Source: Globisporangium splendens
Lineage: Eukaryota > Oomycota > Peronosporomycetes > Pythiales > Pythiaceae
Direction: 5' to 3'
DNA: 64,000 bases
Assembly: GCA_006386115.1 (NCBI GenBank)
Contig: VFIW01000008.1
Span: forward strand, 248,001-312,000
The position numbers and the translations under genes are program-made. How positions within the stretch are numbered: the first letter of the stretch is position 1; the number at the start of each line of letters is the position of its first letter. Of the stretch, positions 21,462 through 59,128 are shown in pieces. The notes beneath the pieces are model-generated. The model was not told the DNA's origin. It saw only the letters and a program-made list of their open reading frames with translations, and did not search any database.

Positions 21462-21616
21462 GGTGCAAGGATCACCACCTCTCCGCATTTGCTCTTTCTT
21501 GGAACACAACTTTATCTTTATAAGGTGAGGTGTATTTAGGTTCATCGTCGTGACCTACAATATCCACTCTCCTTACTACTCTTCATTACGAATTTCATCT
21601 AGGAGTGTAAATGTGT

Positions 21617-25508: not shown

Positions 25509-28500
25509 AGACGACAAATGGAGGTGGAGCAGTCAGGCGCCAGAAAAAGACTGTCTCCTTTGCCATCGACGACGAGAAGGTTCGCGATGGCGTTGACAAT
25601 AGTGAATGGAAGTGGAACAGACACCCTTCCCAAGACAAGAAGACCAGCAAGAAGAGTGTTCCGTCAAGAGTTTTGAGTTCCCCTGATCAAGGTACAAGTG
25701 GTGATGACGAAGGGAGTGTCCAAGCACAAGACATTCCAAGCGAGTTTGTGGATATCGCGGTCTACAATGAAGAAGGTGACGTGGATGTAATCCGTCACGT
25801 GAAGATTGAAAATCCTCCAAGTTCAGTCGAAGAATTGATTTCCTTGCCATCGATGAGCAAGAAGACACTGGAGCGCAGCCTAGCGAGAGGCGATGTTGCG
25901 CAGGTGTGTGTGATCGTCGAAATGGTCGACGAAGGCTTCGTCAACACAGCATCGAGTGCGGATGCAGATGTGTTGGACGAAAAGACACGGAAGGAAGGTT
26001 CGAGGAGCAGTCGTGGGACGCCCTCAAGAAGAACCCCGTGTATGCGCTTGCCAGGGAATATGAAGACATTTTCCCTGACAAGGTGCCGGACGAGTTGCCA
26101 TTCGACAGAGGCATTCGTCATGAGATTGATGTACTTCCTGGCACGAAGTACTGCATCACAAGACAGTGGCCGTTGCCAAAGGAACAAGTCGAGGCAATCG
26201 ACGAGTTCTTTGCACAACGTGCTAATGCTGGTCATGTGCGAGAGAGCAAGTCTCCGCATTGCAGCCCCACTTTCTGTGTGAAGAAGGCAACTGGAGGTTG
26301 GCGCATTGTTCACGCTTTCAACAAGCTGAACGGCACGACAATTCCAGCCCAGACTCCGGTTCCACGCAAGGACATGATCCTTGATGGAATGGTTGGCAGC
26401 ACCGTCTTCAGTGCTATCGATCTGAAAGATGGGTTCTATCAGATTCGAATGCGCGAAGACGATGTTCCACTAATCGCAGTGAGTACCCCGAGTGGTATGC
26501 TGTGGGAATGGTTAGTGATGCCACAGGGACTGAAGAATGCTCCTGCGACCTTCAATCGAATGGTCACAAACGTTCTTCGCCCTCTGCGAACATTTGCACC
26601 AAGTTACTTTGACGACATTTTCGTTCATAGTAAGGCCACGAATGGGAAGTCTGATGTCGATGTTCATCTCGATCATCTTCGTCAAGTTTTCCAGGTCATG
26701 CGTGAGAATGAACTCTACGCAAACTTGAAGAAGTGCATGTTCTTCTCCCCCGAGATCCCTGTTCTCGGTTGTTTTGTGGGCAAGAGCGGTGTTCGAGTCG
26801 ATCCGGAGAAGGTCAAAGCTATTGACGATTGGCCAGTGCCAAAGAACGTCAAGCAGCTACGACAATGGTTGGGTTTAGCCAACTACTTGCACAAGTACAC
26901 GCGCAATTATGCAGCGTTGGTGCAACCCCTCACACAGCTCTTGAAGAAAGACGTTGAGTGGGAGTGGTCGAAAGACCATGAGACGGCATTCGAAGAAGTC
27001 AAGAGGAGTCTTCGAGAAGCTCCTGTGTTGGCTCTGCCAAACCACGACAAGCCGTTCCACGTCGTCTGTGATGCGAGCGATTATGCCATCGGTTGCGCAT
27101 TGATGCAACACGATGATGAGGGTCATGAGCGAGTTGTGTCGTATCAGTCACGACAACTCCGACCCGCAGAACGGAAGTACCCAGTTCATGACAAGGAACT
27201 TCTGGCGATGAAGTATTCTTTGGTCAAGTTCCGTGTGTATCTGCTTGGCGAGGAGCGCTTTGCTATCTACACTGATCACGCATCTCTGCGTACGGCAGTG
27301 AAGACTCCTCATTTGTCGCAATGAATGGCGAGATGGTTCTCCTTCTTTGCAGAGTACAACTTCGTTGTACACTACAAGCCAGGCAAGACGAACATCTTAG
27401 CCGATGCGCTGTCAAGACGTCCGGATTGCGATCCGAAGACCAAGAGTGAAGACACGGACGGAGCGTGTCGACTCTGTGAAGATGTTCAAGCGATCGCGGT
27501 GCGAGCTGCGACTGCAGTGCGAGAAGAGATCGTCGAAGGGTACAAGTCTGACGAAACATGTCAGGACTTGTTGAAGTACTTCAAAGACCCTTCGGACAAA
27601 GCACTGCAAGGTCTTCCGTCGCGCACAAGATCGCGAGTTCACCGCTTCCGAGTACTCAACGGGCTGTTGTACTATGCGGTCGAACAAGGGGATACAGCAA
27701 GGATTGTTGTTCCCAACGACGAAGGTCTGCGTCATCGACTCTTGTATGAGTACCATGACAGTCCTTCTGGTGGCCATCTCGGACGTGAGAAAACGTTTCT
27801 CAGTCTTTCCCGGGATTACTACTGGCCACACATGTACAAGTGGGTGCGCAAGTATGTGAGGACTTGCGAGGCCTGCCAACGAGTGAAACCCTCTGGTTCC
27901 ACGCAGGCACCACTTCGTTCATTGGCTGTCCCATCGGACAGTTGGAAGTCTGTGAGTATGGATTTCATATTCGGACTTCCTCGAGACACACATGGACGCA
28001 ACGGCATCCTTGTGTTTGTGGACCGATTCAGCAAGATGGTCCATCTTGCGCCTGTTTCGGACAAGATCTCGGCAGAGATGACTGCCAAGGTCTTTGTAGA
28101 CGTCATATTCCGTCTGCACGGACTACCAGTCGAGATCGTGTCTGACCGTGACACCCGTTTCACGTCCAAGTTCTGGCGTGCACTGTTCGGACTTCTGGAC
28201 ACCAAGTTGTCCATGTCAACAGCGGCACACCCTGAAACGGATGGTCAAACAGAGCGAGTGAATCGCGTCCTCGAAGACGTGTTGCGCAGCTACGCAACGT
28301 CTTTCAAAGAGTGGAGCGACTATCTCCCTCCTGCCGAGTTTGCGTTGAACAACTCCACGCATGTCTCGACAGGTCACTCTCCATTTTATGTGAACTATGG
28401 CATTCATCCCCGAGTGCCTGCTTCCATAATGGGTGAGGTCTCTACCTTAAGTGGGGGAGGGACTCCGGCTCATGGTAACAAGCCGAAGTCGTCTTACGAC

Positions 28501-29465
28501 CTGAATGCTGCTTCCGAGTTGAAAGCCAATTTTGACTCGATGAAACCCCTCGACGACCTAACAAGTCGTGAAGAGCAGCAAGTCGATGACTTTATTGTGA
28601 GGAGACAAGCCGTTGTGAGGTTTGTTCGAGACGCAATAGCGAAGGCTCAGGATCTGCAAAAGGAACAAGCAGACAAGAGCGGAAGGAAGAACAAGCAAGT
28701 ATATAGGATCAATGATCTTGTATTACTTAGCACGGCGAACCTGCCTGAACATGCAGTGTCCAACTTGGGAAGCTCCAAGCTCCTGCCAAGGTTCATTGGA
28801 CCGTTCAAGGTAGTGAAATGCAATGGTGATGCCTACACGCTAGACATACCTACACGCATGCGTCTACACCCGACATTTTATGTGGGTAGACTGAAGCCTT
28901 ACCTTCCAAGTGGATCTGCGGACCCTACGAGATCTTCCGCAAACGATCGAGCTGATCGTGAAGCTTCTCCACTTGATTGCGAAGAGCAAACAGCTCATCG
29001 CTCTGGAGATCCTTCTCGGCGTACAGGAGTTGTAGGACGTCGAAGGATTGGTCCTTCACTGCCTCCAACGCTTGAAGACGAGAATGGTACTCACCACGAA
29101 GTACCTCGAGAGCCGAACCTGCCTCTTCCACAGAGCGCAAAAGGCGATCGTGAACCAACTCACGAGACTTCTCGTTCTTCCGGAGTCGAACAAGTTCGTC
29201 CCGAATCTGTTGGAACCGTTCCTCAAAACGGGACTCCAAAGCCGAACACTGGGCAGAACCTTCTGTCAGATCGTCGATCTTCGACTCGTGATCGGCGACA
29301 AGGTTCTCGAGACTCTCGCAGCGTTCCTCAAGCGTCGAACAACGCTGCTGCAGCGCCTCGATTTGCCCACGATGAGCACTCTTCCACTTCCAGAGTCGCT
29401 CAATCGTTTTCTCGTTCAGCCCCACCCCCGTTGTTAGGCTCTCAGGGAAAGCATCGCTGGGTGGT
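25469..29465 (+). pseudogene. Gyp1-A pol: RT, RNase H, integrase, chromodomain start
   Basis: The frame opens at 25469, -1 relative to protease. Compared with Gyp1-B and Gyp1-C, one A is missing near 25996 (GGAAGGTTCG against GGAAAGGTTCG), shifting the frame. A single base change makes TGA at 27322-27324 where the others have AGA. RT carries YFDD (the other two copies have YLDD). RNase H (VVCDASDYAIGCAL) and integrase follow, with the HHCC zinc site (H, H, CEAC) and the D, D, E triad (SMDFIFGLP, VSDRDTRF, NRVLEDV). The chromodomain begins (QGKHRWVV) but is replaced by Gyp2 LTR at 29466. Confidence 0.88.
28925..29425 (-). CDS. Antisense coiled-coil ORF of Gyp1-A (5' end lost)
   Basis: This minus-strand frame of 166 codons is opposite the low-complexity linker between integrase and chromodomain. 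It reads as one long amphipathic helix with heptad-spaced Leu, preceded by KTIERLWKWKSAH. It begins at a GTG only because Gyp2-1 cut off the upstream part; in Gyp1-B the same frame continues to an ATG and is 276 codons. Against Gyp1-B it aligns without gaps at about 108 of 165 identical residues by my count, with mostly conservative changes. The function is unknown; oligomerisation is likely. Confidence 0.7.
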   Translation of the reverse strand: MGLNEKTIERLWKWKSAHRGQIEALQQRCSTLEERCESLENLVADHESKIDDLTEGSAQCSALESRFEERFQQIRDELVRLRKNEKSRELVHDRLLRSVEEAGSALEVLRGEYHSRLQALEAVKDQSFDVLQLLYAEKDLQSDELFALRNQVEKLHDQLDRLRKIS

Positions 29466-30000
29466 TGTAACCGGACACTTCCGAGTTACGCAGCACGGTA
29501 CGTATGTGAGGAAGCGTATGCAACGCTTCTCTCAAGGACTCTGTTCCGAGAGCGGTTGCCTGCTTCCTACAGTGCAACAATCGGTTACCTATAGGTCTCT
29601 ATAGAGCAACCGTCGATAACCAAAGGCTTTAGTTAACGGTAAAAATGGAACTGTTTATTTGTTGGAGGTTGCCCTCTGTAGAACAACCTGGATTATCTTT
29701 ATGCAACTATGAACAATAGCAATCTCAAGTGTAATTACTCCCCATGGGGCAATGAGTGGCTATGAAAGACTAACGCTAGTTGTCTTATGTGATTGGATGA
29801 GATGCATGTTCAATTATATCAAATCGGAGGCGCCGTCACTCAGACTGGCTGCCGGCTCCACCGTGAAGGTTCGAGCAAGTACGACGAACCTCATGGTTCG
29901 GTCTCAAACTTGTTGCGCGTACTCTACGTACCGCAAGGTTCGGTTTGGTTGTGTGGCACAACACAAGTGCTTAACCATGTTACAGTGTAACCCCGCTACA
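29466..30000 (-). repeat. Gyp2-1 3' LTR (535 bp)
   Basis: On the minus strand it starts TGTAGCGGGG and ends CCGGTTACA. It matches the other Gyp2 LTRs but has C to T at the terminal hairpin (TGTAGC for TGTAAC on the element strand). It abuts Gyp1-A at 29465. Confidence 0.9.
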
Positions 30001-30013
30001 CCACCCCCCACTT
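30001..30013 (-). promoter_or_regulatory. Gyp2-1 polypurine tract
   Basis: The minus strand reads AAGTGGGGGGTGG immediately before the 3' LTR. It is identical in Gyp2-2 (52099-52111). It primes plus-strand cDNA synthesis. Confidence 0.8.
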
Positions 30014-30184
30014 AAAGTGCGAAACACTCGAAGGGTCGGTGTGAGAAACGTGTGGATCTCGCGCGTGTGCGCCGAGAAAGGGGAACATTCGTGTATTCCT
30101 CGGGAAAGAGCACAGTGGCGACGCGTGCGTTAATTTCACCGAGTGTTGGCACATATAGTCGCTGTGCTCGCGCACGTGAGTATC

Positions 30185-31729
30185 ATGGCCACCAACAAAG
30201 CTGTCCGCGAGAAGCTCGCGCGACAAAAAGGGGAAGCCGTCGGCACTCTCGTCGAAACTCTGCGCAAGCGCGAGGAAGACAGAGAGGTCGCGTCGAGCGC
30301 AAGACGAACGACGGTCACCGCGGATGCGGTCGACGTGCCTGCGGAGAGCGACGGCAGGTCTGCTCTCATATCTGATAGCGCTCCTGCTATAAGCAGTGAG
30401 TTGCGATTCGGAGACCTCCCTTCCGTGAAGCCGTTGTTCGCGCGTGCTTTGGAAGAGGAGGAAGTGACTGAGGAATTCCTCGTCGTTGACAATGACGGAA
30501 GCTCGCTTGAAGACGAGGGAGCGCTCACCATGAAGCTCGGCTCCGTCGACGAGTGGGTCGAGTACGAGGAGTTGCAAAGCGAGCGACACGCCGCTTATCT
30601 CCACGAGCTCGAGCGAGATCCATCCGCTGACGTCTCGATGTATCGGACGAAGGAGGAAAATGACGCCGTTGAGGCTGTCAATAATCGTAAGAGGAAGCAC
30701 GAAGTCCTCATTACAAACGAAGAGACAGGAGTGCGAGCCATCGTTCACGATGAGCTCAAGTACTCACTGCCCGAAATGCCGCCGCCAGAACTATGGCCGG
30801 CTGGCAAGACCGCATCGAATCTGCTCGCGAGAGCCAGACTTTGTGCGTGGGACTATGACGCTCAATTTAAAAATTGGCGTGAAAAGCGATTGCGGGATGA
30901 AAATGGGGAATTGCGTATTCACCCGATCCCAGTCGTCCTCTTTGTTGGAGAGACGGAAGAAGGGTACGATGCCGACTTCATGTCGTGCATCAATAAAATT
31001 AAGGGAGGTAGCACTCGCACAGTGTCTACCGATCCGACAGCGCAACGCAGTCAACGCATGCAATTTGCAGTTGGCCGTGTTCGTCTGTTTCGCTCCAAGC
31101 AGGGCGGTGGCACGCCTCTGCGAGCGGGTGGTCGCGCTGGTATCAGGCGACAAATTACTCGCGCGAATGACAGTCCCTCAGTTGCGCCTCAAAGGCATCA
31201 ACAAGATCCGGGACGTCTTCGCGAAGACGCTCAGCAGGCTCCCACGAGCTCTGCGACACATCGTACCCACGCCACTTCACAAGGTAGTGGGTGTTCCCCT
31301 TACGCCGCTGCACACGCAGCAGGCGCTAAACATGGTAGTGGCGCTGTCCCTGCTTGTCAATCAGCGGGACAGGTGGCGCCCTACTTCGCTTCAGCATCGG
31401 TGGTTGCACCAGATGCGGTGGTTCAGATGGTTCACGCGAACGCATCGTCCTTGGGGGCGCTACAGCAAGCCGTCCGTACCCTTCGCCAGCAATATCTGGA
31501 CGAAACCTCGCTGTTGAAGCAGAGGGTGACAGCGCTTGAGACGGAGCTGAAGGAAGTTCGTCAGATGCTGGAGGAGTACCATGTCCGCGGGAAGCACTTC
31601 CACGCGAGGTACGCTCCGCGAGTGAAGACGCTTTGGGAGAGGCACAACGCGCTCGTGTCTCGATGGGCGACGTCTGAGCCCCCTGATGAGACCGACGTTC
31701 TCCCGGACTGGGATAAAAATCCACAGTAG
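30185..31729 (+). CDS. Antisense ORF of Gyp2-1: acidic protein with C-terminal coiled coil
   Basis: This intact 514-codon frame runs opposite to the element. It starts at an ATG (30185, ATCATGGCC context) in the region between the chromodomain and the 3' LTR and ends TAG at 31729, overlapping the pol chromodomain and linker in antisense. The N-terminal third is charged, with acidic runs (LEEEEVTEE), the middle contains a KRKH basic cluster, and residues about 423-470 form a heptad-patterned coiled coil ending near VKTLWERHNALVSRW. I recognise no family. Codons 1-14 of the larger frame from 30143 are not used, as that frame lacks a better start. In Gyp2-1 it remains open although pol on the other strand carries a stop at 31326. 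The frame in Gyp2-2 has a one-base deletion. Confidence 0.65.
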   Translation: MATNKAVREKLARQKGEAVGTLVETLRKREEDREVASSARRTTVTADAVDVPAESDGRSALISDSAPAISSELRFGDLPSVKPLFARALEEEEVTEEFLVVDNDGSSLEDEGALTMKLGSVDEWVEYEELQSERHAAYLHELERDPSADVSMYRTKEENDAVEAVNNRKRKHEVLITNEETGVRAIVHDELKYSLPEMPPPELWPAGKTASNLLARARLCAWDYDAQFKNWREKRLRDENGELRIHPIPVVLFVGETEEGYDADFMSCINKIKGGSTRTVSTDPTAQRSQRMQFAVGRVRLFRSKQGGGTPLRAGGRAGIRRQITRANDSPSVAPQRHQQDPGRLREDAQQAPTSSATHRTHATSQGSGCSPYAAAHAAGAKHGSGAVPACQSAGQVAPYFASASVVAPDAVVQMVHANASSLGALQQAVRTLRQQYLDETSLLKQRVTALETELKEVRQMLEEYHVRGKHFHARYAPRVKTLWERHNALVSRWATSEPPDETDVLPDWDKNPQ

Positions 31730-38907: not shown

Positions 38908-39509
38908 GCCCGGAAAAGAGGACTGTGGACGTTGTGGAGACACAGGACTCTGGCCCCTATGTGCATCAAGCACATGCAGTTTCCACTATGAGTGAGAAGA
39001 GTGTCAGTCAAACGTCAAGTTTGACCGTTCACAACGTTCATGTAGACGGTATTGCAACGCCTCTACGAGCTTTGGTTGACACTGGTGCGTCGAACAACTT
39101 TGTTCGAAATGAAGTGATCGTCAGGCATGGTGTCTTTGTGCCTGATGCGTATGAAGAGAAGACAATGATCGTCCGGTTGGCAAATGGGTCAACTGTGAAG
39201 ATGCCGAAGCGCGTGGTGCGTTTGGCAATCAAGTGTGAAGATTTCCGAGGTGAAGGCGAGTTCATTTTACTCGACCTCGATGACAAGTTTGACATCATCC
39301 TGGGAATGCCATGGTTGAAGCGTTATCAACCTAGCATTGACTGGATGAATATGAAGATCTCCGTTGGCAAGTCACGAGATGTTGACTTGTGCTGCACAAC
39401 AACGGATGAAGTAGCATGGGTGTACACATCTGTGGAAGAGATCCCAGATGGCCCTTGTGATATTGCGGTGTGCGATGGCCCCCATGTTCACAAGCGGTAC
39501 CCATTTTGA
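38869..39509 (+). CDS. Gyp1-B protease frame
   Basis: This is the retropepsin-type protease in the -1 frame relative to gag, with LRALVDTGASNNFV and FDIILGMPWL intact. It has no start codon of its own in a sensible place. It ends TGA at 39507, overlapping the RT frame, which is again -1. I see no canonical slippery heptamer at this second junction. Confidence 0.85.
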
Positions 39510-42500
39510 AGACGACAAATGGAGGTGGAGCAGTCAGGCGCCAGAAAAAGACTGTCTCCTTTGCCATCGACGACGACAAGGTTCGCGATGGCGTTGACAA
39601 GAGTGAATGGAAGAGGAACAGACACCCTTCCCAAGACAAGAAGACCAGCAAGAGAAGTTTTTCGCCAAGAGTTTTGAGTTCCCCTGATCAAGGTACAAGT
39701 GGTGATGACGAAGGGAGTGTCCAAGCACAAGACATTCCAAACGAGTTTGTGAATATCGCGGTCTACAATGAAGAAGGTGACGTGGATGTAATCCGTCACG
39801 TGAAGATTGAAAATCCTCCAAGTTCAGTCGAAGAATTGATTTCCTTGCCATCAATGAGCAAGAAGACACTGGAGCGCAGCCTAGCGAGAGGCGATATTGC
39901 GCAGGTGTGTGTGATCGTCGAAATGGTCGACGAAGGCTTCGTCAACACAGCATCGAGTGCGGATGCAGATGTGTTGGACGAAAAGACACGGAGGGAAAGG
40001 TTCGAGGAGCAGTCGTGGGACGCCCTCAAGAAGAACCCCGTGTATGTGCTTGCCAGGGAATATGAAGACATTTTTCCTGACAAGGTGCCGGACGAATTGC
40101 CATTCGACAGAGGCATTCGTCATGAGATTGATGTACTTCCTGGCACGAAGTACTGCATCACAAGACAGTGGCCGTTCCCAAAGGAACAAGTCGAGGCGAT
40201 CGACGAGTTCTTTGCGCAACGTGCTAAGGCTGGTCATGTGCGAGAGAGCAAGTCTCCGCATTGCAGCCCCACTTTCTGTGTGAAGAAGGCAACTGGAGGT
40301 TGGCGCATTGTTAATGCTTTCAACAAGCTGAACGACGCGGCAATTCCAGCCCAGACTCCGGTTCCACGCAAGGACATGATCCTTGATGGAATGGTCGGCA
40401 GCACCGTCTTCAGTGCTATCGATCTGAAAGATGGGTTCTATCAGATTCGAATGCGCGAAGACGATGTCCCACTAACCGCAGTAAGCACCCCGAGTGGTAT
40501 GCTATGGGAATGGTTAGTGATGCCACAGGGACTGAAGAATGCTCCTGCGACCTTCAATCGAATGGTCACGAACGTTCTTCGTCCTCTGCGAACATTTGCA
40601 CCAAGTTACTTGGACGACATTTTCGTTCATAGTAAGGCCACGAATGGGAAGTCTGATGTCGATGTTCATCTCGATCATCTTCGTCAAGTCTTCCAGGTCG
40701 TGCGTGAGAACAAACTCTACGCTAACTTGAAGAAGTGCATGTTCTTCTCCCCCGAGATCCCTGTTCTCGGTTGTTTTGTGGGCAAGAGCGGTGTTCGAGT
40801 CGATCCGGAGAAGGTCAAAGCTATTGACGATTGGCCAGTGCCAAAGAACGTCAAACAGCTACGACAATGGTTGGGTCCAGCCAACTACTTGCACAAGTAC
40901 ACGCGCAATTATGCAGCGTTGGTGCAACCCCTCACACAGCTCTTGAAGAAAGACGTTGAGTGGGAGTGGTCGAAAGACCATGAGACGGCATTCGAAGAAG
41001 TCAAGAGGAGTCTTCGAGAAGCTCCTGTGTTGGCTCTGCCAAACCACGACAAGCCGTTCCACGTCGTCTGTGATGCGAGCGATTATGCCATCGGTTGCGC
41101 ATTGATGCAACACGGTGATGAGGGTCATGAGCGAGTTGTGTCGTATCAGTCACGACAACTCCGACCCGCAGAGCGGAACTACCCAGTTCATGACAAGGAA
41201 CTTCTGGCGATGAAGTATTCTTTGGTCAAGTTCCGTGTGTATCTGCTTGGCGAGGAGCGCTTTGCTATTTACACTGATCACGCATCTCTGCGTACGGCAG
41301 TGAAGACTCCTCATTTGTCGCAAAGAATGGCGAGATGGTTCTCCTTCTTTGCAGAGTACAACTCTGTTGTACACTGCAAACCAGGCAAAACGAACATCTT
41401 AGCCGATGCGCTGTCAAGACGTCCGGATTACGATCCGAAGACCAAGAGTGAAGACACGGACGGAGCGTGTCGACTCTGTGAAGATGTTCAAGCGATCGCG
41501 GTGCGAGCTGCGACTGCAGTGCGAGAAGAGATCGTCGAAGGGTACAAGTCTGACGAAACATGTCAGGACTTGTTGAAGTACTTCAAAGACCCTTCGGACA
41601 AAGCACTGCAAGGTCTTCCGTCGCGCACAAGATCGCGAGTTCACCGCTTCCGAGTACTCAACGGGCTGTTGTACTATGCGGTCGAACAAGGGGATACAGC
41701 AAGGATTGTTGTTCCCAACGACGAAGGTCTGCGTCATCGACTCTTGTATGAGTACCATGACGGTCCTTCGGGTGGCCATCTCGGACGTGAGAAAACGTTT
41801 CTCAGTCTTTCCCGGGATTACTACTGGCCACACATGTACAAGTGGGTGCGCAAGTATGTGAGGACTTGCGAGGCCTGCCAACGAGTGAAACCCTCTGGTT
41901 CCACGCAGGCACCACTTCGTTCATTGGCTGTCCCATCGGACAGTTGGAAGTCTGTGAGTATGGATTTCATATTCGGACTTCCTCGAGACACACATGGACG
42001 CAATGGCATCCTTGTGTATGTGGACCGATTCAGCAAGATGGTTCATCTTGCGCCTGTTTCGGACAAGATCTCTGTTGAGAAGACTGCCAAGGTCTTTGTA
42101 GACGTCGTATTCCGTCTACACGGACTACCAGTCAAGATCGTGTCTGACCGTGACACCCGTTTCACGTCCAAGTTCTGGCGTGCACTGTTTGGACTTCTGG
42201 ACACCAAGCTATCCATGTCAACAGCGGCACACCCTGAAACGGACGGTCAAACAGAGCGAGTGAATCGCGTCCTCGAAGACGTGTTGCGCAGCTACGCAAC
42301 GTCTTTCAAAGAGTGGAGCGACTATCTCCCTCTTGCCGAGTTTGCGTTGAACAACTCCACGCATGTCTCGACAGGTCACTCTCCATTTTATGTGAACTAT
42401 GGCATTCATCCTCGAGTGCCTGCTTCCGTAATGGGTGAGGTCTCTACCTTAAGTGGGGGAGGGACTCCGGCTCATGGAAACAAGCCGAAGTCGTCTTACG

Positions 42501-43651
42501 ACCTGAATGCTGCTTCCGAGTTGAAAGCAAATTTTGACTCGATGAAACCCCTCGACGACCTAACAAGTCGTGAAGAGCAGCAAGTCGATGACTTTATTGT
42601 GAGGAGACAAGCCGTTGTGAGGTTTGTTCGAGACGCAATTGCAAAGGCTCAGGATCTGCAAAAGGAACAAGCAGATAGGAGCGGAAGGAAGAACAAGCAA
42701 GTATATAAGATCAATGATCTTGTATTACTTAGCACGACTAATCTACCTGAACACGCAGTGTCTAACTTGGGGAGTTCGAAACTTCTGCCAAGATATATTG
42801 GACCGTTCAGGGTAGTTAAATGCAATGGTGATGCATACACACTAGACATTCCTAAACGCATGCGACTACACCCTACGTTCTACGTAGGTCGACTAAAGCC
42901 TTACCTTCCAAGTGGGTCAGCGAACCCTATAGAGCCCTTGACGGATGATCAAGTTGATCCTGAAGTCGCTCCACCAGCTCGCGAAGAGTCTGTAACTCAT
43001 CGCCATGGAGCTTCTTCTCGGCATAAAGGCGCTGAAGCACATCAAAGGACTCGTCCTTCATTGTCTCCAACGCGAGAAGGCGACCATGATACTCCTTCCG
43101 AAGTATCTCAAGAGAAGTCCCTGCCTCTTCCACAGAGCGCAGTAGACGTTCGTGATACGCATCGCGAGCTTTCTCAGCCTTCTGGAGTCGTTCAAGCTCG
43201 GCTTGAATCTTCTCGAACCTCTGTTCGAAACGTGACTCCATTGCCGAACGCTGGGCAAGACCATCGAAGAGCAAGTCGATCTTCGACTCATGTTCCTTCA
43301 ACCGGTCTTCGAGGCTTTCGCACCGGTCTTCGAGTACCGCGTTGCGAACTTCAAGAGCCTCGATCTGAGCGCGGTGAGCACTCTTCCACTTCCAGAGTCG
43401 CTCAATCGTTTTCGCGTTCAACCCCACCTCCTCTGATCGATCATCAGGGAGAGCGCCGTTGGATCGTTGAGTCGATAGTAGATCATAAGGATCGATCGAC
43501 TCGTCGTCGAGGAGAGAAGCAGTTGAACCGTCAACACTTCTACAGAGTTCGGTGGCGTGGATATCCACCGGACTCAGACACGTGGGAGCCTCGTCAGACA
43601 TTGGAGTCTGATGTTCCCGACGTGGTCCGCAGCTATGAGAACTGCTTGTAG
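39470..43651 (+). CDS. Gyp1-B pol: RT, RNase H, integrase, chromodomain (intact, 1393 codons)
   Basis: A single open frame covers an N-terminal linker, RT with YLDD at about residue 380, RNase H from about 527 (VVCDASDYAIGCAL), an integrase zinc site at about 756-800 (HHCC), the D, D, E core at about 830, 891 and 933, a GPY/F-like module (LLPRYIGPFRVVKCNG), a Ser/Pro/Arg-rich linker, and a C-terminal chromodomain at about 1334-1385 (WIVESIVDHK, YRVRWRGYPPDSDTWEP). The chromodomain probably directs integration to marked chromatin. No damage is visible, so the encoded enzyme may be active if expressed. The linker and chromodomain are opposite the antisense ORF. Confidence 0.92.
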   Translation: MRWPPCSQAVPILKTTNGGGAVRRQKKTVSFAIDDDKVRDGVDKSEWKRNRHPSQDKKTSKRSFSPRVLSSPDQGTSGDDEGSVQAQDIPNEFVNIAVYNEEGDVDVIRHVKIENPPSSVEELISLPSMSKKTLERSLARGDIAQVCVIVEMVDEGFVNTASSADADVLDEKTRRERFEEQSWDALKKNPVYVLAREYEDIFPDKVPDELPFDRGIRHEIDVLPGTKYCITRQWPFPKEQVEAIDEFFAQRAKAGHVRESKSPHCSPTFCVKKATGGWRIVNAFNKLNDAAIPAQTPVPRKDMILDGMVGSTVFSAIDLKDGFYQIRMREDDVPLTAVSTPSGMLWEWLVMPQGLKNAPATFNRMVTNVLRPLRTFAPSYLDDIFVHSKATNGKSDVDVHLDHLRQVFQVVRENKLYANLKKCMFFSPEIPVLGCFVGKSGVRVDPEKVKAIDDWPVPKNVKQLRQWLGPANYLHKYTRNYAALVQPLTQLLKKDVEWEWSKDHETAFEEVKRSLREAPVLALPNHDKPFHVVCDASDYAIGCALMQHGDEGHERVVSYQSRQLRPAERNYPVHDKELLAMKYSLVKFRVYLLGEERFAIYTDHASLRTAVKTPHLSQRMARWFSFFAEYNSVVHCKPGKTNILADALSRRPDYDPKTKSEDTDGACRLCEDVQAIAVRAATAVREEIVEGYKSDETCQDLLKYFKDPSDKALQGLPSRTRSRVHRFRVLNGLLYYAVEQGDTARIVVPNDEGLRHRLLYEYHDGPSGGHLGREKTFLSLSRDYYWPHMYKWVRKYVRTCEACQRVKPSGSTQAPLRSLAVPSDSWKSVSMDFIFGLPRDTHGRNGILVYVDRFSKMVHLAPVSDKISVEKTAKVFVDVVFRLHGLPVKIVSDRDTRFTSKFWRALFGLLDTKLSMSTAAHPETDGQTERVNRVLEDVLRSYATSFKEWSDYLPLAEFALNNSTHVSTGHSPFYVNYGIHPRVPASVMGEVSTLSGGGTPAHGNKPKSSYDLNAASELKANFDSMKPLDDLTSREEQQVDDFIVRRQAVVRFVRDAIAKAQDLQKEQADRSGRKNKQVYKINDLVLLSTTNLPEHAVSNLGSSKLLPRYIGPFRVVKCNGDAYTLDIPKRMRLHPTFYVGRLKPYLPSGSANPIEPLTDDQVDPEVAPPAREESVTHRHGASSRHKGAEAHQRTRPSLSPTREGDHDTPSEVSQEKSLPLPQSAVDVRDTHRELSQPSGVVQARLESSRTSVRNVTPLPNAGQDHRRASRSSTHVPSTGLRGFRTGLRVPRCELQEPRSERGEHSSTSRVAQSFSRSTPPPLIDHQGERRWIVESIVDHKDRSTRRRGEKQLNRQHFYRVRWRGYPPDSDTWEPRQTLESDVPDVVRSYENCL

Positions 43652-43757
43652 CGTCGCCAGGGGCGACACTACGACGACCAGAGCTACGGTTCGCTCTGTC
43701 GTCAGCGGGAGTTCTTCTTTCGGCACGAGCGTTGCCACGACGAAGAAGACGCTCCAT
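42927..43757 (-). CDS. Antisense coiled-coil ORF of Gyp1-B (276 codons, full length)
   Basis: It runs from ATG at 43757 (AACAAAATGG) to the stop at 42927 on the strand opposite pol. Residues about 1-100 are low-complexity and Arg/Ser/Asp-rich. Residues about 105-270 form a long heptad coiled coil introduced by KTIERLWKWKSAHRAQIEAL. The sense product of the same DNA is the pol linker and chromodomain. Conservation between B and the A/C version is higher in this antisense frame (about 65 percent, no gaps) than in the sense frame (about 45 percent over the linker), which points to selection on the antisense protein. The function is unknown, and any promoter would lie between 43758 and the 3' LTR. 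Confidence 0.75.
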   Translation of the reverse strand: MERLLRRGNARAERRTPADDRANRSSGRRSVAPGDATSSSHSCGPRREHQTPMSDEAPTCLSPVDIHATELCRSVDGSTASLLDDESIDPYDLLSTQRSNGALPDDRSEEVGLNAKTIERLWKWKSAHRAQIEALEVRNAVLEDRCESLEDRLKEHESKIDLLFDGLAQRSAMESRFEQRFEKIQAELERLQKAEKARDAYHERLLRSVEEAGTSLEILRKEYHGRLLALETMKDESFDVLQRLYAEKKLHGDELQTLRELVERLQDQLDHPSRAL

Positions 43758-44070
43758 TTTGTTCTCGTTCTCAAGACGAACAAATGTTCGCCATGAGTCT
43801 CTCTGGGCTGCGATGTGTTGGTTCGGATCATCGCGATCGTCGATCCGACGCCAACTGAAGAACCGCTCCTTGTAGAACTCGAGCTCCCCCTTCTCCTTCA
43901 GAATGGGAGAAATGTCAAAGAGTTCTGGAGCTGTCCGCTATCGCTTGGACGACGGACGTTCTTCTCGGTTCACTAGGTCACTTGGTCGCTTCATTGCCAA
44001 TTGCAAAGTGAACTGCTCCGAAAGGTCTGCAAAAGTACGCAAGGTATTTGTGACTTTAAGGAGGGGATGA
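43758..44070 (+). other. Gyp1-B region between antisense ORF start and 3' LTR
   Basis: This stretch of about 310 bp holds no sense frame I can support. It ends in the polypurine tract AAGGAGGGGATGA (44058-44070) next to the 3' LTR. It would contain the 5' leader and promoter of the antisense ORF if that is transcribed from the element. Confidence 0.6.
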
Positions 44071-44210
44071 TGTAATGGGCTATAACCAGCCATTACATGA
44101 AGGTGGATCTGTTCCCAGATCTAGTGTGCCATACACCACCTTCAACGTGCATTGTGGAGACACAAATAACAAAGGGATTGCAGTAATACAGTCCCCACAT
44201 GAACGTGTGA
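44071..44210 (+). repeat. Gyp1-B 3' LTR, truncated to 140 bp
   Basis: It begins TGTAATGGGC with the terminal hairpin and follows the Gyp1 LTR sequence up to GAACGTGTGA, where Gyp2-2 starts. The TGACGTCA and the palindromic repeats of the full LTR are therefore missing. Confidence 0.9.
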
Positions 44211-44745
44211 TGTAACGGGGTTACACTGTAACATGGTTACGCACTTGTGTTGCGCCACACAACCAAACCGAACCTTGCGGTACGTAGAGTACGCGCAACA
44301 AGTTTAAGACCGAACCATGAGGTTCGTCGTACTTGCTCGAACCTTCACGGTGGAGCCGGCAGCCAGTCTGAGTGACGGCGCCTCCGATTGGATATAATTG
44401 AACATGCATTTCATCCAATCACATAAGACAACTAGCGTTAGTCTTTCATAGCCACTCATTGCCCCATGGGGAGTAATTACACTTGAGATTGCTATTGTTC
44501 ATAGTTACATAAAGATAATCCAGGTTGTCCTACAGAGGGCAACCTCCAACAAATAAACAGTTCCATTTTTACCGTTAACTAAAGCCTTTGGTTATCGACG
44601 GTTACTCTATAGAGACCTATAGGTAACCGATTGTTGCACTGCAGGAAGCAGGCAACAGCTCTCGGAACAGAGTCCTTGAGAGAAGCGTTGCATACGCTTC
44701 CTCACACACGTACCGTGCTGCGTAACTCGGGAGTGTCCGGTTACA
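44211..44745 (+). repeat. Gyp2-2 5' LTR (535 bp)
   Basis: TGTAACGGGG...CCGGTTACA, with a terminal inverted repeat TGTAAC GGG GTTACA at 44211-44225. It matches 52112-52646 with few differences. Confidence 0.92.
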
Positions 44746-49831: not shown

Positions 49832-50958
49832 GTTACGGTACACGTGTCCCTAAAGATGGATCACCCACGGTACCGAGTTACGGTACTCGTGCTAAAAATA
49901 GCCAGTCTCAGACGGAATCAGGCGACTGCTCGTGCGAGCGTCAGCCACGAATGGAAGGACGCGCAGTGTCACACACCGGCGCAGAAATAGATCTCTCTGC
50001 AGCACGCACTGCGAGAGCAACGACAAAGCAAGACAAAGCCGTCGCGGCAGCGCGGCAATTTGTCGATGAGCGCGCAGCATTGTTGCGTCGCGTACGCGAC
50101 CGACTAGCTGCTGCGCAAGACAAGCAAAAGCTCTACGCCGATAAATCGGGTAGAAAGAACAAACAAACGTTTTGTGTGGGTGATAAAGTGCTTTTAAGCA
50201 TTAAAAACCTACCAAACGATGCAGTCACAACGCTCCCCAGCGGGAGTAAGTTGTTGCCACGATTCATCGGGACATACACTGTTGTGGAGAAGATTGGAGA
50301 CTTGAATTACAAGCTCGATCTCCCAGCGAGAATGGCAACGCACCCCGTGTTCTACGTGGGTTTGCTGAAACGCTACCATGACGCTACTGTGGATTTTTAT
50401 CCCAGTCCGGGAGAACGTCGGTCTCATCAGGGGGCTCAGACGTCGCCCATCGAGACACGAGCGCGTTGTGCCTCTCCCAAAGCGTCTTCACTCGCGGAGC
50501 GTACCTCGCGTGGAAGTGCTTCCCGCGGACATGGTACTCCTCCAGCATCTGACGAGCTTCCTTCAGCTCCGTCTCAAGCGCTGTCACCCTCTGCTTCAAC
50601 AGCGAGGTTTCGTCCAGATATTGCTGGCGAAGGGTACGGACGGCTTGCTGTAGCGCCTCCAAAGACGATGCGTTCGCGTGAACCATCTGAACCATCGCAT
50701 CTGGTGCAACCACCGATGCTGAAGCGAAGTAGGGCGCCACCTGTCCCGCTGATTGACAAGCAGGGACAGCGCCACTACCATGTTGAGCGCCTGCTGCGTG
50801 TGCAGCGGCGGAAGGGGAACACCCACTACCTTGTGAAGTGGCGTGGGTACGATGTGTCGCAGAGCTCGTGGGAGCCTGCTGAGCGTCTTCGCGAAGACGT
50901 CCTGGATCTTGCTGACGCCTTTGAGGCGCAACTGAGGGACTGTCATTCGCGCGAGTAA
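49732..50958 (+). CDS. Gyp2-2 pol C-terminal part: GPY/F-like module, linker, chromodomain
   Basis: A frame of about 408 codons contains the TVLSYGTR peptide repeat, a lysine-rich helix (QDKQKLYADKSGRKNKQ), a GPY/F-like module (LLPRFIGTYTVVEKIG), a Pro/Ser-rich linker and an intact chromodomain at about residues 345-395 (HYHVERLLRV, YLVKWRGYD, SWEPAERL). The chromodomain is lost by a stop in Gyp2-1. The distal half lies opposite the antisense ORF. Confidence 0.83.
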   Translation: MDARDAPPVRSRSESVTVLPDSTQSIDMSGTVLSYGTRVPKDGSPTVPSYGTRAKNSQSQTESGDCSCERQPRMEGRAVSHTGAEIDLSAARTARATTKQDKAVAAARQFVDERAALLRRVRDRLAAAQDKQKLYADKSGRKNKQTFCVGDKVLLSIKNLPNDAVTTLPSGSKLLPRFIGTYTVVEKIGDLNYKLDLPARMATHPVFYVGLLKRYHDATVDFYPSPGERRSHQGAQTSPIETRARCASPKASSLAERTSRGSASRGHGTPPASDELPSAPSQALSPSASTARFRPDIAGEGYGRLAVAPPKTMRSREPSEPSHLVQPPMLKRSRAPPVPLIDKQGQRHYHVERLLRVQRRKGNTHYLVKWRGYDVSQSSWEPAERLREDVLDLADAFEAQLRDCHSRE

Positions 50959-51927
50959 TTTGTCGCCTGTTACCAGCGCGACCACCCGCTCGCAGAGGCG
51001 TGCCACCGCCCTGCTTGGAGCGAAACAGACGAACACGGTCAACTGCAAATTGCATGCGTTGACTGCGTTGCGCTGTCGGATCGGTAGACACTGTGCGAGT
51101 GCTACCTCCCTTAATTTTACTGATGCACGACATGAAGTCGGCATCGTACTCTTCTTCCGTCTCTCCAACAAAGAGGACGACTGGGATCGGGTGAATACGC
51201 AATTCCCCATTTTCATCCCGCAATCGCTTTTCACGCCAATTTTAAATTGAGCGTCATAGTCCCACGCACAAAGTCTGGCTCTCGCGAGCAGATTCGATGC
51301 GGTCTTGCCAGCCGGCCATAGTTCTGGCGGCGGCATTTCGGGCAGTGAGTACTTGAGCTCATCGTGAACGATGGCTCGCACTCCTGCCTCTTCGTTTGTA
51401 ATGAGGACTTCGTGCTTCCTCTTACGATTATTGACAGCCTCAACGGCGTCATTTTCCTCCTTCGTCCGATACATCGAGACGTCAGCGGATGGATCTCCCT
51501 CGAGCTCGTGGAGATAAGCGGCGTGTCGCTCGCTTTGCAACTCCTCGTACTCGACCCACTCGTCGACGGAGCCGAGCTTCATGGTGAGCGCTCCCTCGTC
51601 TTCAAGCGAGCTTCCGTCATTGTCAACGACGAGGAATTCCTCAGTCACTTCCTCCTCTTCCAAAGCACGCGCGAACAACGGCTTCACGGAAGGGAGGTCT
51701 CCGAATCGCAACTCACTGCTTATAGCAGGAGCGCTATCAGATATGAGAGCAGACCTGCCGTCGCTCTCCGCAGGCACGTCGACCGCATCCGCGGTGACCG
51801 TCGTTCGTCTTGCGCTCGACGCGACCTCTCTGTCTTCCTCGCGCTTGCGCAGAGTTTCGACGAGAGTGCCGACGGCTTCCCCTTTTTGTCGCGCGAGCTT
51901 CTCGCGGACAGCTTTGTTGGTGGCCAT
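50384..51927 (-). pseudogene. Antisense ORF of Gyp2-2, frameshifted copy
   Basis: This is the counterpart of the intact frame at 30185-31729. It starts at ATG 51927. Near 51240 the A run before TTGGCG has one A fewer (four instead of five), so the frame changes and the C-terminal coiled coil is read in another frame (50384-51223). Residue differences from Gyp2-1 are few outside that. The break lies upstream of the part that overlaps the chromodomain. Confidence 0.65.
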
Positions 51928-52098
51928 GATACTCACGTGCGCGAGCACAGTGACTATACGTGCCAACACTCGGTGAAATTAACGCACGCGTCGCCGCTGT
52001 GCTCTTTCCCGAGGAATACACGAATGTTCCCCTTTCTCGGCGCACACGCGCGAGATCCACACGTTTCTCACACCGACCCTTCGAGTGTTTCGCACTTT

Positions 52099-52111
52099 AA
52101 GTGGGGGGTGG
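52099..52111 (+). promoter_or_regulatory. Gyp2-2 polypurine tract
   Basis: AAGTGGGGGGTGG lies immediately upstream of the 3' LTR. Confidence 0.8.
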
Positions 52112-52646
52112 TGTAACGGGGTTACACTGTAACATGGTTACGCACTTGTGTTGTGCCACACAACCAAACCGAACCTTGCGGTACGTAGAGTACGCGCAAC
52201 AAGTTTAAGACCGAACCATGAGGTTCGTCGTACTTGCTCGAACCTTCACGGTGGAGCCGGCAGCCAGTCTGAGTGACGGCGCCTCCGATTGGACATAATT
52301 GAACATGCATTTCACCCAATCACATAAGACAACTAGCGTTAGTCTTTCATAGCCACTCATTGCCCCATGGGGAGTAATTACACTTGAGATTGCTATTGTT
52401 CATAGTTGCATAAAGATAATCCAGGTTGTTCTACAGAGGGCAACCTCCAACAAATAAACAGTTCCATTTTTACCGTTAACTAAAGCCTTTGGTTATCGAC
52501 GGTTACTCTATAGAGACCTATAGGTAACCGATTGTTGCACTGCAGGAAGCAGGCAACCGCTCTCGGAACAGAGTCCTTGAGAGAAGCGTTGCATACGCTT
52601 CCTCACATACGTACCGTGCTGCGTAACTCGGAAGTGTCCGGTTACA
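52112..52646 (+). repeat. Gyp2-2 3' LTR (535 bp)
   Basis: It has the same termini as the 5' LTR and abuts Gyp1-C at 52647, at the same Gyp1 base that is interrupted in Gyp1-A. Confidence 0.92.
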
Positions 52647-55600
52647 ACCACCCAGCGATGCTTTCCCTGAGAGCCTAACAACGGGGGTGGGGCTGAACGA
52701 GAAAACGATTGAGCGACTCTGGAAGTGGAAGAGTGCTCATCGTGGGCAAATCGAGGCGCTGCAGCAGCGTTGTTCGACACTTGAGGAACGCTGCGAGAGT
52801 CTCGAGAACCTTGTCGCCGATCACGAGTCGAAGATCGACGATCTGACAGAAGGTTCTGCCCAGTGTTCGGCTTTGGAGTCCCGTTTTGAGGAACGGTTCC
52901 AACAGATTCGGGACGAACTTGTTCGACTCCGGAAGAACGAGAAGTCTCGTGAGTTGGTTCACGATCGCCTTTTGCGCTCTGTGGAAGAGGCAGGTTCGGC
53001 TCTCGAGGTACTTCGTGGTGAGTACCATTCTCGTCTTCAAGCGTTGGAGGCAGTGAAGGACCAATCCTTCGACGTCCTGCAACTCCTGTACGCCGAGAAG
53101 AATCTCCAGAGCGATGAGCTGTTTGCTCTTCGCAATCAAGTGTAGAAGCTTCACGACCAGCTCGATCGTTTGCGGAAGATCTCGTAGGATCCGCAGATCC
53201 ACTTGGAAGGTAAGGCTTCAGTCTACCCACATAAAATGTCGGGTGTAGACGCATGCGTGTAGGTATGTCTAGCGTGTAGGCATCACCATTGCATTTCACT
53301 ACCTTGAACGGTCCAATGAACCTTGGCAGAAGCTTCGAGCTTCCCAAGTTGGACACTGCATGTTCAGGCAGGTTCGCCGTGCTAAGTAATACAAGATCAT
53401 TGATCTTATATACTTGCTTGTTCTTCCTTCCGCTCTTGTCTGCTTGTTCCTTTTGCAGATCCTGAGCCTTCGCGATTGCGTCTCGAACAAACCTCACAAC
53501 GGCTTGTCTCCTCACAATAAAGTCATCGACTTGCTGCTCTTCACGACTTGTTAGGTCGTCGAGGGGTTTCATCGAGTCAAAATTTGCTTTCAACTCGGAA
53601 GCAGCATTCAGGTCGTAAGACGACTTCGGCTTGTTACCATGAGCCGGAGTCCCTCCCCCACTTAAGGTAGAGACCTCACCCATTATGGAAGCAGGCACTC
53701 GAGGATGAATGCCATAGTTCACATAAAATGGAGAGTGACCTGTCGAGACATGCGTGGAGTTGTTCAACGCAAACTCGGCAAGAGGGAGATAGTCGCTCCA
53801 CTCTTTGAAAGACGTTGCGTAGCTGCGCAACACGTCTTCGAGGACGCGATTCACTCGCTCTGTTTGACCGTCCGTTTCAGGGTGTGCCGCTGTTGACATG
53901 GACAACTTGGTGTCCAGAAGTCCGAACAGTGCACGCCAGAACTTGGACGTGAAACGGGTGTCACGGTCAGACACGATCTCGACTGGTAGTCCGTGCAGAC
54001 GGAATATGACGTCTACAAAGACCTTGGCAGTCATCTCTGCCGAGATCTTGTCCGAAACAGGCGCAAGATGGACCATCTTGCTGAATCGGTCCACAAACAC
54101 AAGGATGCCGTTGCGTCCATGTGTGTCTCGAGGAAGTCCGAATATGAAATCCATACTCACAGACTTCCAACTGTCCGATGGGACAGCCAATGAACGAAGT
54201 GGTGCCTGCGTGGAACCAGAGGGTTTCACTCGTTGGCAGGCCTCGCAAGTCCTCACATACTTGCGCACCCACTTGTACATGTGTGGCCAGTAGTAATCCC
54301 GGGAAAGACTGAGAAACGTTTTCTCACGTCCGAGATGGCCACCCGAAGGACTGTCATGGTACTCATACAAGAGTCGATGACGCAGACCTTCGTCGTTGGG
54401 AACAACAATCCTTGCTGTATCCCCTTGTTCGACCGCATAGTACAACAGCCCGTTGAGTACTCGGAAGCGGTGAACTCGCGATCTTGTGCGCGACGGAAGA
54501 CCTTGCAGTGCTTTGTCCGAAGGGTCTTTGAAGTACTTCAACAAGTCCTGACATGTTTCGTCAGACTTGTACCCTTCGACGATCTCTTCTCGCACTGCAG
54601 TCGCAGCTCGCACCGCGATCGCTTGAACATCTTCACAGAGTCGACACGCTCCGTCCGTGTCTTCACTCTTGGTCTTCGGATCGTAATCCGGACGTCTTGA
54701 CAGCGCATCGGCTAAGATGTTCGTTTTGCCTGGTTTGCAGTGTACAACAGAGTTGTACTCTGCAAAGAAGGAGAACCATCTCGCCATTCTTTGCGACAAA
54801 TGAGGAGTCTTCACTGCCGTGCGCAGAGATGCGTGATCAGTGTAGATAGCAAAGCGCTCCTCGCCAAGCAGATACACACGGAACTTGACCAAAGAATACT
54901 TCATCGCCAGAAGTTCCTTGTCATGAACTGGGTACTTCCGTTCTGCGGGTCGGAGTTGTCGTGACTGATACGACACAACTCGCTCATGACCCTCATCATC
55001 GTGTTGCATCAATGCGCAACCGATGGCATAATCGCTCGCATCACAGACGACGTGGAACGGCTTGTCGTGGTTTGGCAGAGCCAACACAGGAGCTTCTCGA
55101 AGACTCCTCTTGACTTCTTCGAACGCCGTCTGATGGTCTTTCGACCACTTCCACTCAACGTCTTTCTTCAAGAGCTGTGTGAGGGGTTGCACCAACGCTG
55201 CATAATTGCGCGTGTACTTGTGCAAGTAGTTGGCTAGACCCAACCATTGTCGTAGCTGCTTGACGTTCTTTGGCACTGGCCAATCGTCAATAGCTTTGAC
55301 CTTCTCCGGATCGACTCGAACACCGCTCTTGCCCACAAAACAACCGAGAACAGGGATCTCGGGGGAGAAGAACATGCACTTCTTCAAGTTAGCGTAGAGT
55401 TTGTTCTCACGCACGACCTGGAAGACTTGACGAAGATGATCGAGATGAACATCGACATCAGACTTCCCATTCGTGGCCTTACTATGAACGAAAATGTCGT
55501 CCAAGTAACTTGGTGCAAATGTTCGCAGAGGACGAAGAACGTTCGTGACCATTCGATTGAAGGTCGCAGGAGCATTCTTCAGTCCCTGTGGCATCACTAA

Positions 55601-56644
55601 CCATTCCCACAGCATACCACTCGGGGTACTCACTGCGGTTAGTGGAACATCGTCTTCGCGCATTCGAATCTGATAGAACCCATCTTTCAGATCGATAGCA
55701 CTGAAGACGGTGCTGCCAACCATTCCATCAAGGATCATGTCCTTGCGTGGAACCGGAGTCTGGGCCGGAATTGTCGCGTCGTTCAGCTTGTTGAAAGCGT
55801 GAACAATGCGCCAACCTCCAGTTGCCTTCTTCACACAGAAAGTGGGGCTGCAATGCGGAGACTTGCTCTCTCGCACATGACCAGCCTTAGCACGTTGTGC
55901 AAAGAACTCGTCGATTGCCTCGACTTGTTCCTTTGGCAACGGCCACTGTCTTGTGATGCAGTACTTCGTGCCAGGAAGTACATCAATCTCACGACGAATG
56001 CCTCTGTCGAATGGCAACTCGTCCGGCACCTTGTCAGGGAAAATGTCTTCATATTCCCTGGCAAGCGCATACACGGGGTTCTTCTTGAGGGCGTCCCACG
56101 ACTGCTCCTCGAACCTTTCCTTCCGTGTCTTTTCGTCCAACACATCTGCATCCGCACTAGATGCTGTGTCGACGAAGCCTTCGTCGACCATTTCGACGAT
56201 AACACACACCTGCGCAATATCGCCTCTCGCTAGGCTGCGCTCCAGTGTCTTCTTGCTCATCGATGGCAAGGAAATCAATTCTTCGACTGAACTTGGAGGA
56301 TTTTCAATCTTCACGTGACGGATTACATCCACGCCACCTTCTTCATTGTAGACCGCGATATTCACAAACTCGCTTGGAATGTCTTGTGCTTGGACACTCC
56401 CTTCGTCATCGCCACTTGTACCTTGATCAGGGGAACTCAAAACTCTTGGCGAAAAACTTCTCTTGCTGGTCTTCTTGTCTTGGGAAGGGTGTTTGTTCCT
56501 CTTCCATTCACTCTTGTCAACGCCATCGCGAACCTTCTCGTCGTCGATGGCAAAGGAGACAGTCTTTTTCTGGCGCCTGACTGCTCCACCTCCATTTGTC
56601 GTCTTCAAAATGGGTACCGCTTGTGAACATGGGGGCCATCGCAC
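52647..56644 (-). CDS. Gyp1-C pol: RT, RNase H, integrase, chromodomain start
   Basis: An uninterrupted frame from 56644 covers RT (YLDD), RNase H, integrase (HHCC; D, D, E) and the linker, and is cut at QGKHRWVV by the Gyp2-2 LTR. The frame runs on into the LTR to 52508, which is not pol. It lacks the two breaks seen in Gyp1-A. Integrase and linker residues follow Gyp1-A, while several RT residues follow Gyp1-B. Confidence 0.88.
52687..53145 (+). pseudogene. Antisense coiled-coil ORF of Gyp1-C, truncated at both ends
   Basis: This is the + strand counterpart of 28925-29425, with the KTIERLWKWKSAH lead-in and the same coiled coil. It is cut at its 5' end by Gyp2-2 (GTG at 52687 is internal) and by TAG at 53143-53145 where Gyp1-A has GAG, removing about 14 residues. 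Confidence 0.68.
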
Positions 56645-59042: not shown

Positions 59043-59128
59043 GTTTTTAACTTCCAATAATCAATAAGTTTTTCTCATTTGTTTTTTTGGTTCATTTTAT
59101 TCCCTATTGAAAGTCCAGCGTGTCTACC

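Follow-up and report, generated by a model that had tools for sequence, protein, structure and literature searches.

A probable antisense protein-coding gene opposite the end of pol in chromodomain gypsy elements of the oomycete Globisporangium splendens

Introduction

Antisense accessory open reading frames (ORFs) of plant gypsy elements lie beside the 3' LTR and are found in many copies per family, and gene23 of Grande has a promoter of its own and gives a nuclear antisense product (PMC7264820, in its accessible part). In Retand, 97% of clusters have an antisense ORF with TRP28 (PMC11963269, in its accessible part). Among other retroelements, HBZ of HTLV-1 is an antisense bZIP factor that is nuclear and has a minus-strand promoter in the 3' LTR, and ASP of HIV-1 is encoded antisense opposite env, a main gene (PMC10186651, accessible part). 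What is known of such antisense genes in retroelements is mostly their position and conservation. In oomycetes, Chronos and other chromodomain gypsy elements have a pol that ends in a chromodomain; the word "antisense" is absent from the main text of the paper describing them (PMC5348765). In the mainly open-access literature that we searched, we found no account of an antisense gene situated for the most part opposite pol in which selection had been resolved strand by strand.

We analyzed a window of 64,000 nucleotides from the plant pathogen Globisporangium splendens (contig VFIW01000008.1, positions 248,001 to 312,000), for which an original prediction had proposed an antisense coiled-coil gene in the gypsy family Gyp1. 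Homologues of the antisense protein were searched in the genome of this species (53.3 Mb in 195 contigs). The genome paper likewise gives 53.3 Mb and describes AUGUSTUS gene models made with transcript hints (PMC7163027), and many of the antisense proteins have therefore already been deposited as "hypothetical protein ... partial". Such deposition is not proof of transcription.

Results

Gyp1 copies in the window

Gyp1 is a Ty3/gypsy element with a chromodomain. Its pol contains reverse transcriptase (RT), RNase H, integrase and a C-terminal chromodomain in that order, as identified with Pfam. The following features belong to the three copies in the window.

39461..43651, plus strand: pol frame of Gyp1-B with RT, RNase H, integrase, SH3, linker and chromodomain (Pfam)
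42716..42901, plus strand: integrase SH3_Tf2-1 domain of Gyp1-B (Pfam); the antisense stop lies ~25 nt past the domain end
42902..43459, plus strand: pol linker of Gyp1-B from SH3 to chromodomain, 186 residues, S/R/P-rich
43460..43639, plus strand: pol chromodomain of Gyp1-B (PF00385, E 2.5e-13)
42927..43994, minus strand: antisense gene of Gyp1-B in its family extent (start codon 43992-43994, stop 42927-42929)
44071..44213, plus strand: start of the Gyp1-B 3' LTR (direct repeat with 23070-23212; 76 nt from the antisense start codon)
28925..29463, minus strand: antisense remnant of Gyp1-A, C-terminal part, joined to Gyp2 sequence at 29464
52649..53187, plus strand: antisense remnant of Gyp1-C, an inverted duplicate of A with one antisense stop (ends taken from the mirror of A)

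After the start of the Gyp1-B 3' LTR, the LTR sequence of a second family, Gyp2, takes over from 44207. Elsewhere in the window, a non-LTR element at 1757-7303 (plus strand) carries two successive frames, the first for an endonuclease and a reverse transcriptase and the second with an RNase H of the RVT_3 type. At 7408-21513 lies a local gene array, in which a stretch containing a 422-codon frame with a match to NADH:flavin oxidoreductase (PF00724) is repeated several times almost unchanged, in both direct and inverted orientation.

The original prediction placed the antisense gene in Gyp1-A, -B and -C and held it to be better conserved than the sense protein (108 of 165 identical residues vs 77 of 172). 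Our recount without gaps agreed with the second statement: 111/169 antisense and 77/168 sense residues are identical between B and A, and 110/169 and 77/168 between B and C. The B/A differences numbered 42, 28 and 71 at antisense codon positions 1, 2 and 3. The frames in the three copies are indeed homologous, but A and C are not independent of each other, with 167 of 169 antisense residues identical, C having one stop, and their homology to B is confined to residues 162-330 of the 336-codon frame of B. Both A and C lie within a 4.9-kb inverted duplicate of 99% identity (25995-30872 and 51240-56117). This duplicate spans the Gyp1-Gyp2 junction, indicating that Gyp1-A and Gyp1-C descend from a single joined copy, unless the duplicate is an artefact of the assembly.

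Extent and geometry of the antisense gene

The Gyp1 antisense gene has ~350 codons and runs from beside the 3' LTR, opposite the chromodomain and the linker, to where the integrase SH3 domain ends. The protein of the intact copies starts with MKR at the position equivalent to 43992-43994. The Gyp1-B copy itself is interrupted by an in-frame antisense stop at 43938-43940, leaving an open frame of 336 codons (42927-43937), within which an internal ATG at 43755-43757 gives a reading of 276 aa. The 276 codons previously taken as the full length of the gene in Gyp1-B do start at this ATG; because of the in-frame stop, however, they represent a truncated reading, and intact copies mostly have 349 or 355 codons. 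Similarly, the gene had been located between the integrase tail and the chromodomain. It does lie opposite the linker, but also opposite the chromodomain, and ~109-115 of its codons are outside pol; ~240 of the ~350 codons, about two thirds, are opposite pol.

The start codon is 76 nt from the edge of the 3' LTR in 59 of the 63 intact copies and 1 nt closer in one, the motif used having missed the LTR edge in the other three. The gene thus adjoins the 3' LTR as predicted, and this position would fit an antisense promoter in the LTR.

The two frames overlap in a register that pairs antisense positions 1, 2 and 3 with pol positions 1, 3 and 2, respectively. Third-position changes that are silent in one frame therefore nearly always replace an amino acid in the other, and the fastest position class marks the free frame.

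Copies across the genome

A six-frame search of the genome with the antisense protein gave 438 candidates, of which the best 140 were scored and 88 of these were fetched, including the window copy. Among the best 140, 136 had no internal stop; since these candidates are the best matches to the antisense protein, the sample is biased toward intact copies. The antisense gene was intact, with the family start and at least 339 codons, in 63 of the 88 fetched copies, and its length was mostly 349 codons (32 copies) or 355 codons (21 copies). The pol frame was also open over the whole ~240-codon overlap in 60 of the 63 intact copies, the exceptions being L041, L085 and L087. Two subfamilies were compared, E with 28 copies (353-356 codons) and D with 32 copies (349 codons), and the remaining three copies (339, 341 and 380 codons) belonged to neither. 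Of the 82 database proteins matching the Gyp1 antisense protein, 63 are named as G. splendens, 18 are environmental or unnamed, and 1 is the window's own.

Stop codons in the two frames

When the whole pol ORF was shuffled synonymously with the protein held fixed, 8.9 antisense stops were expected in the 248-codon tail, and 1 was seen (P = 0.0002), which is the gene's own stop. The rest of pol has 37 stops in 1148 codons in the same antisense frame. The claim that antisense stops are rarer than chance was therefore borne out. The reverse shuffle, synonymous for the antisense protein, gave an expectation of 6.4-7.1 pol stops in the overlap for four copies, and none was seen in each of them; none of the 3000 shuffles was as low as the observed value. 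Judged from these counts and from the substitution patterns below, pol is kept open through the linker while the linker residues drift between the subfamilies.

Selection on the two strands

Differences per codon position were calculated from 378 of 378 pairs within E, 400 of 496 within D and 400 of 896 between E and D. Between the subfamilies, the differences per site at antisense positions 1, 2 and 3 were 0.318, 0.306 and 0.499 outside pol, 0.228, 0.165 and 0.339 opposite the linker, and 0.159, 0.258 and 0.119 opposite the chromodomain. As a control, 150 sense-only codons of integrase/SH3, with 7 of the 63 copies dropped for internal stops, gave 0.046, 0.036 and 0.241 at pol positions 1, 2 and 3. 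Taken with this control, the position patterns indicate that constraint falls on the antisense frame outside pol and in the linker, and on pol in the chromodomain. With each column counted once, variable columns at antisense positions 3 and 2 numbered 96 and 51 in the linker (P = 0.0003), as opposed to 13 and 26 facing the chromodomain (P = 0.053 alone), and the contrast between the two regions was significant (P = 0.0006). The young D copies alone showed no position bias in the linker (8, 12 and 12 variable columns at antisense positions 1, 2 and 3), and their class counts of 14/261, 17/139 and 14/117 sites suggest that both frames are constrained there.

We also estimated dN/dS with an overlap-aware estimator in the manner of OLGenie, coded for this analysis, on 250 of 378 within-E pairs and 250 of 896 E-D pairs. 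Outside pol, the antisense dN/dS was 0.30 (0.19-0.47) within E and 0.25 (0.14-0.45) between E and D, the latter at a dS of 1.5, which is near saturation. In the linker, the antisense ratio (dNN/dSN) was 0.31 both within E (0.21-0.45) and between E and D (0.20-0.46), as opposed to sense ratios (dNN/dNS) of 0.94 (0.66-1.33) and 0.96 (0.67-1.40), respectively. The chromodomain showed sense ratios of 0.28 (0.08-0.75) within E and 0.34 (0.15-0.71) between E and D, and its antisense ratios had wide intervals, 0.56 (0.17-1.89) and 0.97 (0.34-3.10).

The estimator is biased low, as neutral simulations gave ~0.75. When selection was simulated on the sense frame only, the antisense ratio was 0.80 (0.42-1.47) at 125 substitutions and 0.77 (0.28-2.42) at 55 substitutions in a single pair. 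The E-D value of 0.31 for the linker lies below the 125-substitution range, and the within-E value just inside the 55-substitution, single-pair range. By these ratios, the linker is constrained between subfamilies for the amino acids of the antisense frame and not for those of pol. An accessory gene under selection, as originally proposed, agrees with the values outside pol (0.25-0.30) and in the linker (0.31). Over many copies, the conservation of the antisense frame was thus confirmed in these two regions, but opposite the chromodomain the ratios of 0.56 and 0.97 were too loosely bounded to extend it.

The antisense protein

Fifteen aligned homologues, down to 41% identity to the first, were conserved in an N-terminal block and in the C-terminal half. 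We predicted the structure with AlphaFold from 15 sequences (pTM 0.27), and three regions were distinguished, numbered here by the residues of one homologue, P0005.

43716..43907, minus strand: N-terminal conserved helical domain, residues ~30-93, outside pol (alignment block and predicted helices)
43443..43724, minus strand: disordered stretch, residues ~91-184, including the chromodomain-facing part (pLDDT <50 at 91-131 and 133-184)
42930..43442, minus strand: long coiled-coil helix, residues 185-355 (171 residues), facing the pol linker (AlphaFold and periodicity)

The N-terminal domain has predicted helices at 39-52, 62-76 and 78-93, with a block pLDDT of ~52-71, and that of the long helix is 82-98 from residue 191 onward. 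Hydrophobicity had a period of 3.50, the coiled-coil repeat, over residues 196-356 when averaged over 10 of the 15 sequences, and none of 1000 shuffles was as strong. In five sequences taken singly, a crude count of heptads did not reach significance (P 0.09-1.0). The predicted helix and its periodicity support the coiled coil named in the original prediction, and the protein is predicted to oligomerize through this coil. The N-terminus is basic, with a nuclear-localization-like KR...KRQR judged by eye.

The chromodomain faces antisense residues ~119-179, within the predicted disordered stretch, and the pol linker, with 22% hydrophobic residues, faces the long helix. From its composition, we infer that the linker is disordered.

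No Pfam family matched at cutoff in four antisense proteins (P0001, P0004, P0072 and P0079), and the NCBIfam matches of three of the four, all well short of the cutoffs, were to SMC-type and related helix-rich families. A sequence search of the PDB with the antisense protein returned 22 matches, all weak (best E 0.0074) and several to coiled coils, and a further one gave no match.

The sister family Gyp2 and the outgroup Gyp3

Gyp2 is 67% identical to Gyp1 over the RT region and likewise has an antisense gene opposite the end of pol.

30185..31729, plus strand: Gyp2 antisense gene, 514 codons, opposite the end of Gyp2 pol

The antisense frames of Gyp2 reach 531 codons opposite the pol end, and of 86 matched stretches, which include partial ones, 68 had no internal stop. 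The gene stops at the integrase SH3 domain, and its frame relative to pol is as in Gyp1. In the copy Gyp2-2 and in the fetched copy L089, a chromodomain, recognized by eye, comes next in the sense frame. The pol of Gyp2-1 (minus strand) has a stop at 31326-31328, at the beginning of the chromodomain, and the other copy and L089 read through. An inverted Gyp2 copy at 50596-51978 (minus strand) has a 460-codon frame that departs from the 514-codon gene after ~250 residues.

Two of three fetched Gyp2 copies were set against the window copy. Outside pol, the window copy and L089, which represent two Gyp2 subfamilies, differ at 142, 123 and 196 sites of antisense positions 1, 2 and 3 over 373 codons. 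Their antisense proteins share 180 of 373 residues there and 128 of 132 in the overlap, and this sharp change of identity at the pol border suggests recombination at that point. We dropped a homology between the Gyp1 and Gyp2 antisense proteins: an hhalign comparison gave a probability of 14.9% (E 0.0018), over a stretch partly facing the shared chromodomain. In three deposited models (P0087, P0092 and P0095), the Gyp2 antisense protein is joined to gag or to the beginning of the Gyp1 antisense protein, which probably reflects annotation across nested elements.

Gyp3 (59111-63755), an outgroup gypsy element with an RT identity of 43%, has only 23 residues between SH3 and chromodomain. No minus-strand frame of at least 60 codons begins or ends in the 740 nt after its pol end, and its 3' LTR was not located; beyond these 740 nt lies a 209-codon minus-strand frame (L092:1148-1777). 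The interlocked overlap accompanies a long linker in both families in which it was seen, Gyp1 and Gyp2. Given the same geometry in these two, the interlocked arrangement most simply predates their split.

Discussion

The comparisons among copies make it very probable that the Gyp1 antisense gene is coding and that it and pol are under a dual constraint. We lean toward a counter-phase reading of the two strands, with the folded part of each strand's protein predicted to face the disordered part of the other's, and coding and dual constraint taken together with this reading, function aside, seem to us likely. The linker ratios of 0.96 for pol and 0.31 for the antisense frame, together with the 23-residue linker of Gyp3, make the long pol linker the likelier secondary frame opposite the antisense coil, and pol appears primary opposite the chromodomain. 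The original term, an accessory gene overprinted on pol, is accordingly half right: it may suit the chromodomain, where pol appears primary, but not the linker, where the amino-acid constraint appears to be on the antisense strand.

Several other explanations were weighed. If pol alone were coding, the antisense frame would be a shadow ORF, open and similar between copies through base composition and pol codon usage. Such an origin would suit two further antisense frames opposite the same pol (168 and 196 codons), and the pattern facing the chromodomain is indeed that of sense coding. It is contradicted, however, by the ~109-115 selected codons outside pol and by a linker pattern that is the reverse of the integrase control, and the antisense stops are far fewer than the pol protein predicts; we dropped it as highly improbable. 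Still less likely is an antisense RNA, not a protein, as the functional product, controlling the element, for example, by an antisense or double-stranded RNA mechanism. Antisense RNAs that do not code for protein have been described for LTR elements (PMC7264820, accessible part), but codon-position and dN/dS patterns are protein-level signals, with which an additional role of the RNA would be compatible. The gene might also have been captured from the host, or have come from another element by insertion in reverse, in keeping with its opposite orientation and with the absence of Pfam homology to gag, pol or other known families. We consider this very unlikely, as the gene interlocks with pol in one fixed frame in both Gyp1 and Gyp2, and the homologues found in the G. 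splendens genome and among deposited proteins were only G. splendens or environmental proteins, with no host gene recognized among them.

A stronger contender, although in our view still an unlikely one, concerns the linker. Both frames could be equally constrained there, with the apparent neutrality of pol resulting from subfamily divergence of an adapting or recombining linker. The class counts within the young D copies fit such a constraint, and the linker stretch EHSSTSRVAQSF is identical in 11 of 11 aligned pol tails. On the other hand, the sense ratios within the 28 E copies and between E and D are at or above the simulated neutral value.

A function of the antisense gene can be proposed from its position, its basic start and the parallels with Grande gene23 and HBZ. 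An unspliced antisense RNA would start in or beside the 3' LTR. The protein, with its basic, possibly nuclear-localizing start, would oligomerize via the coil and act in the nucleus on transcription or integration of its own element. The long pol linker would be kept open mainly so that pol can read through the antisense gene to the chromodomain. That the antisense protein is such a nuclear self-regulator of the element's expression or integration is a tentative proposal, to which we give slightly less than an even chance. The broader picture likewise falls slightly short of an even chance in our estimate: an oomycete gypsy clade in which an antisense regulatory gene interlocks with pol in counter-phase, the linker existing for read-through, with a geometry that would predate the Gyp1/Gyp2 split and outlast turnover of the antisense sequence beyond recognition.

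Comparison with known systems

Like Chronos and its relatives, Gyp1 is an oomycete gypsy element with a pol ending in a chromodomain (PMC5348765, accessible part). Membership in Chronos was dropped, as a second RNase H of the archaeal/plant type is lacking (neither RVT_3 nor RNase_H matched 39461-42901 up to E 1).

HBZ, ASP and the Gyp1 gene are all antisense genes of retroelements, ASP overlapping env and the Gyp1 gene overlapping pol. The HBZ promoter sits in the 3' LTR, and the position of the Gyp1 start codon would fit such a promoter. An HBZ-like bZIP protein was dropped, no bZIP being among the Pfam matches up to E 1 in the four antisense proteins searched (P0001, P0004, P0072 and P0079). 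The basic N-terminus of the Gyp1 protein is ~160 residues from the coil, as opposed to the adjoining basic region and leucine zipper of bZIP. A TRP28 protein of the Retand type was also dropped, as PF04195 had no match up to E 1 in the same four proteins.

The closest likeness is to the plant antisense ORFs termed aORF-3R. As in these, the Gyp1 gene is antisense and starts close to the 3' LTR edge, is intact in 63 of 88 copies (chosen by similarity), and encodes a conserved protein with a dN/dS of 0.25-0.30 outside pol. Unlike aORF-3R, described between pol and the 3' LTR in the accessible part of the source, it has ~109-115 codons there and 240 opposite pol, and its host is an oomycete. The Gyp1 gene extends the range of antisense accessory genes to oomycetes, for which such products have already entered the databases labelled as hypothetical proteins. 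A single genome held enough copies to measure selection on each strand separately, and the switch of constraint between strands near domain boundaries offers a testable case of two proteins sharing ~240 codons. Antisense accessory ORFs are known from plant gypsy elements; what looks new here is the interlocked overlap with pol.
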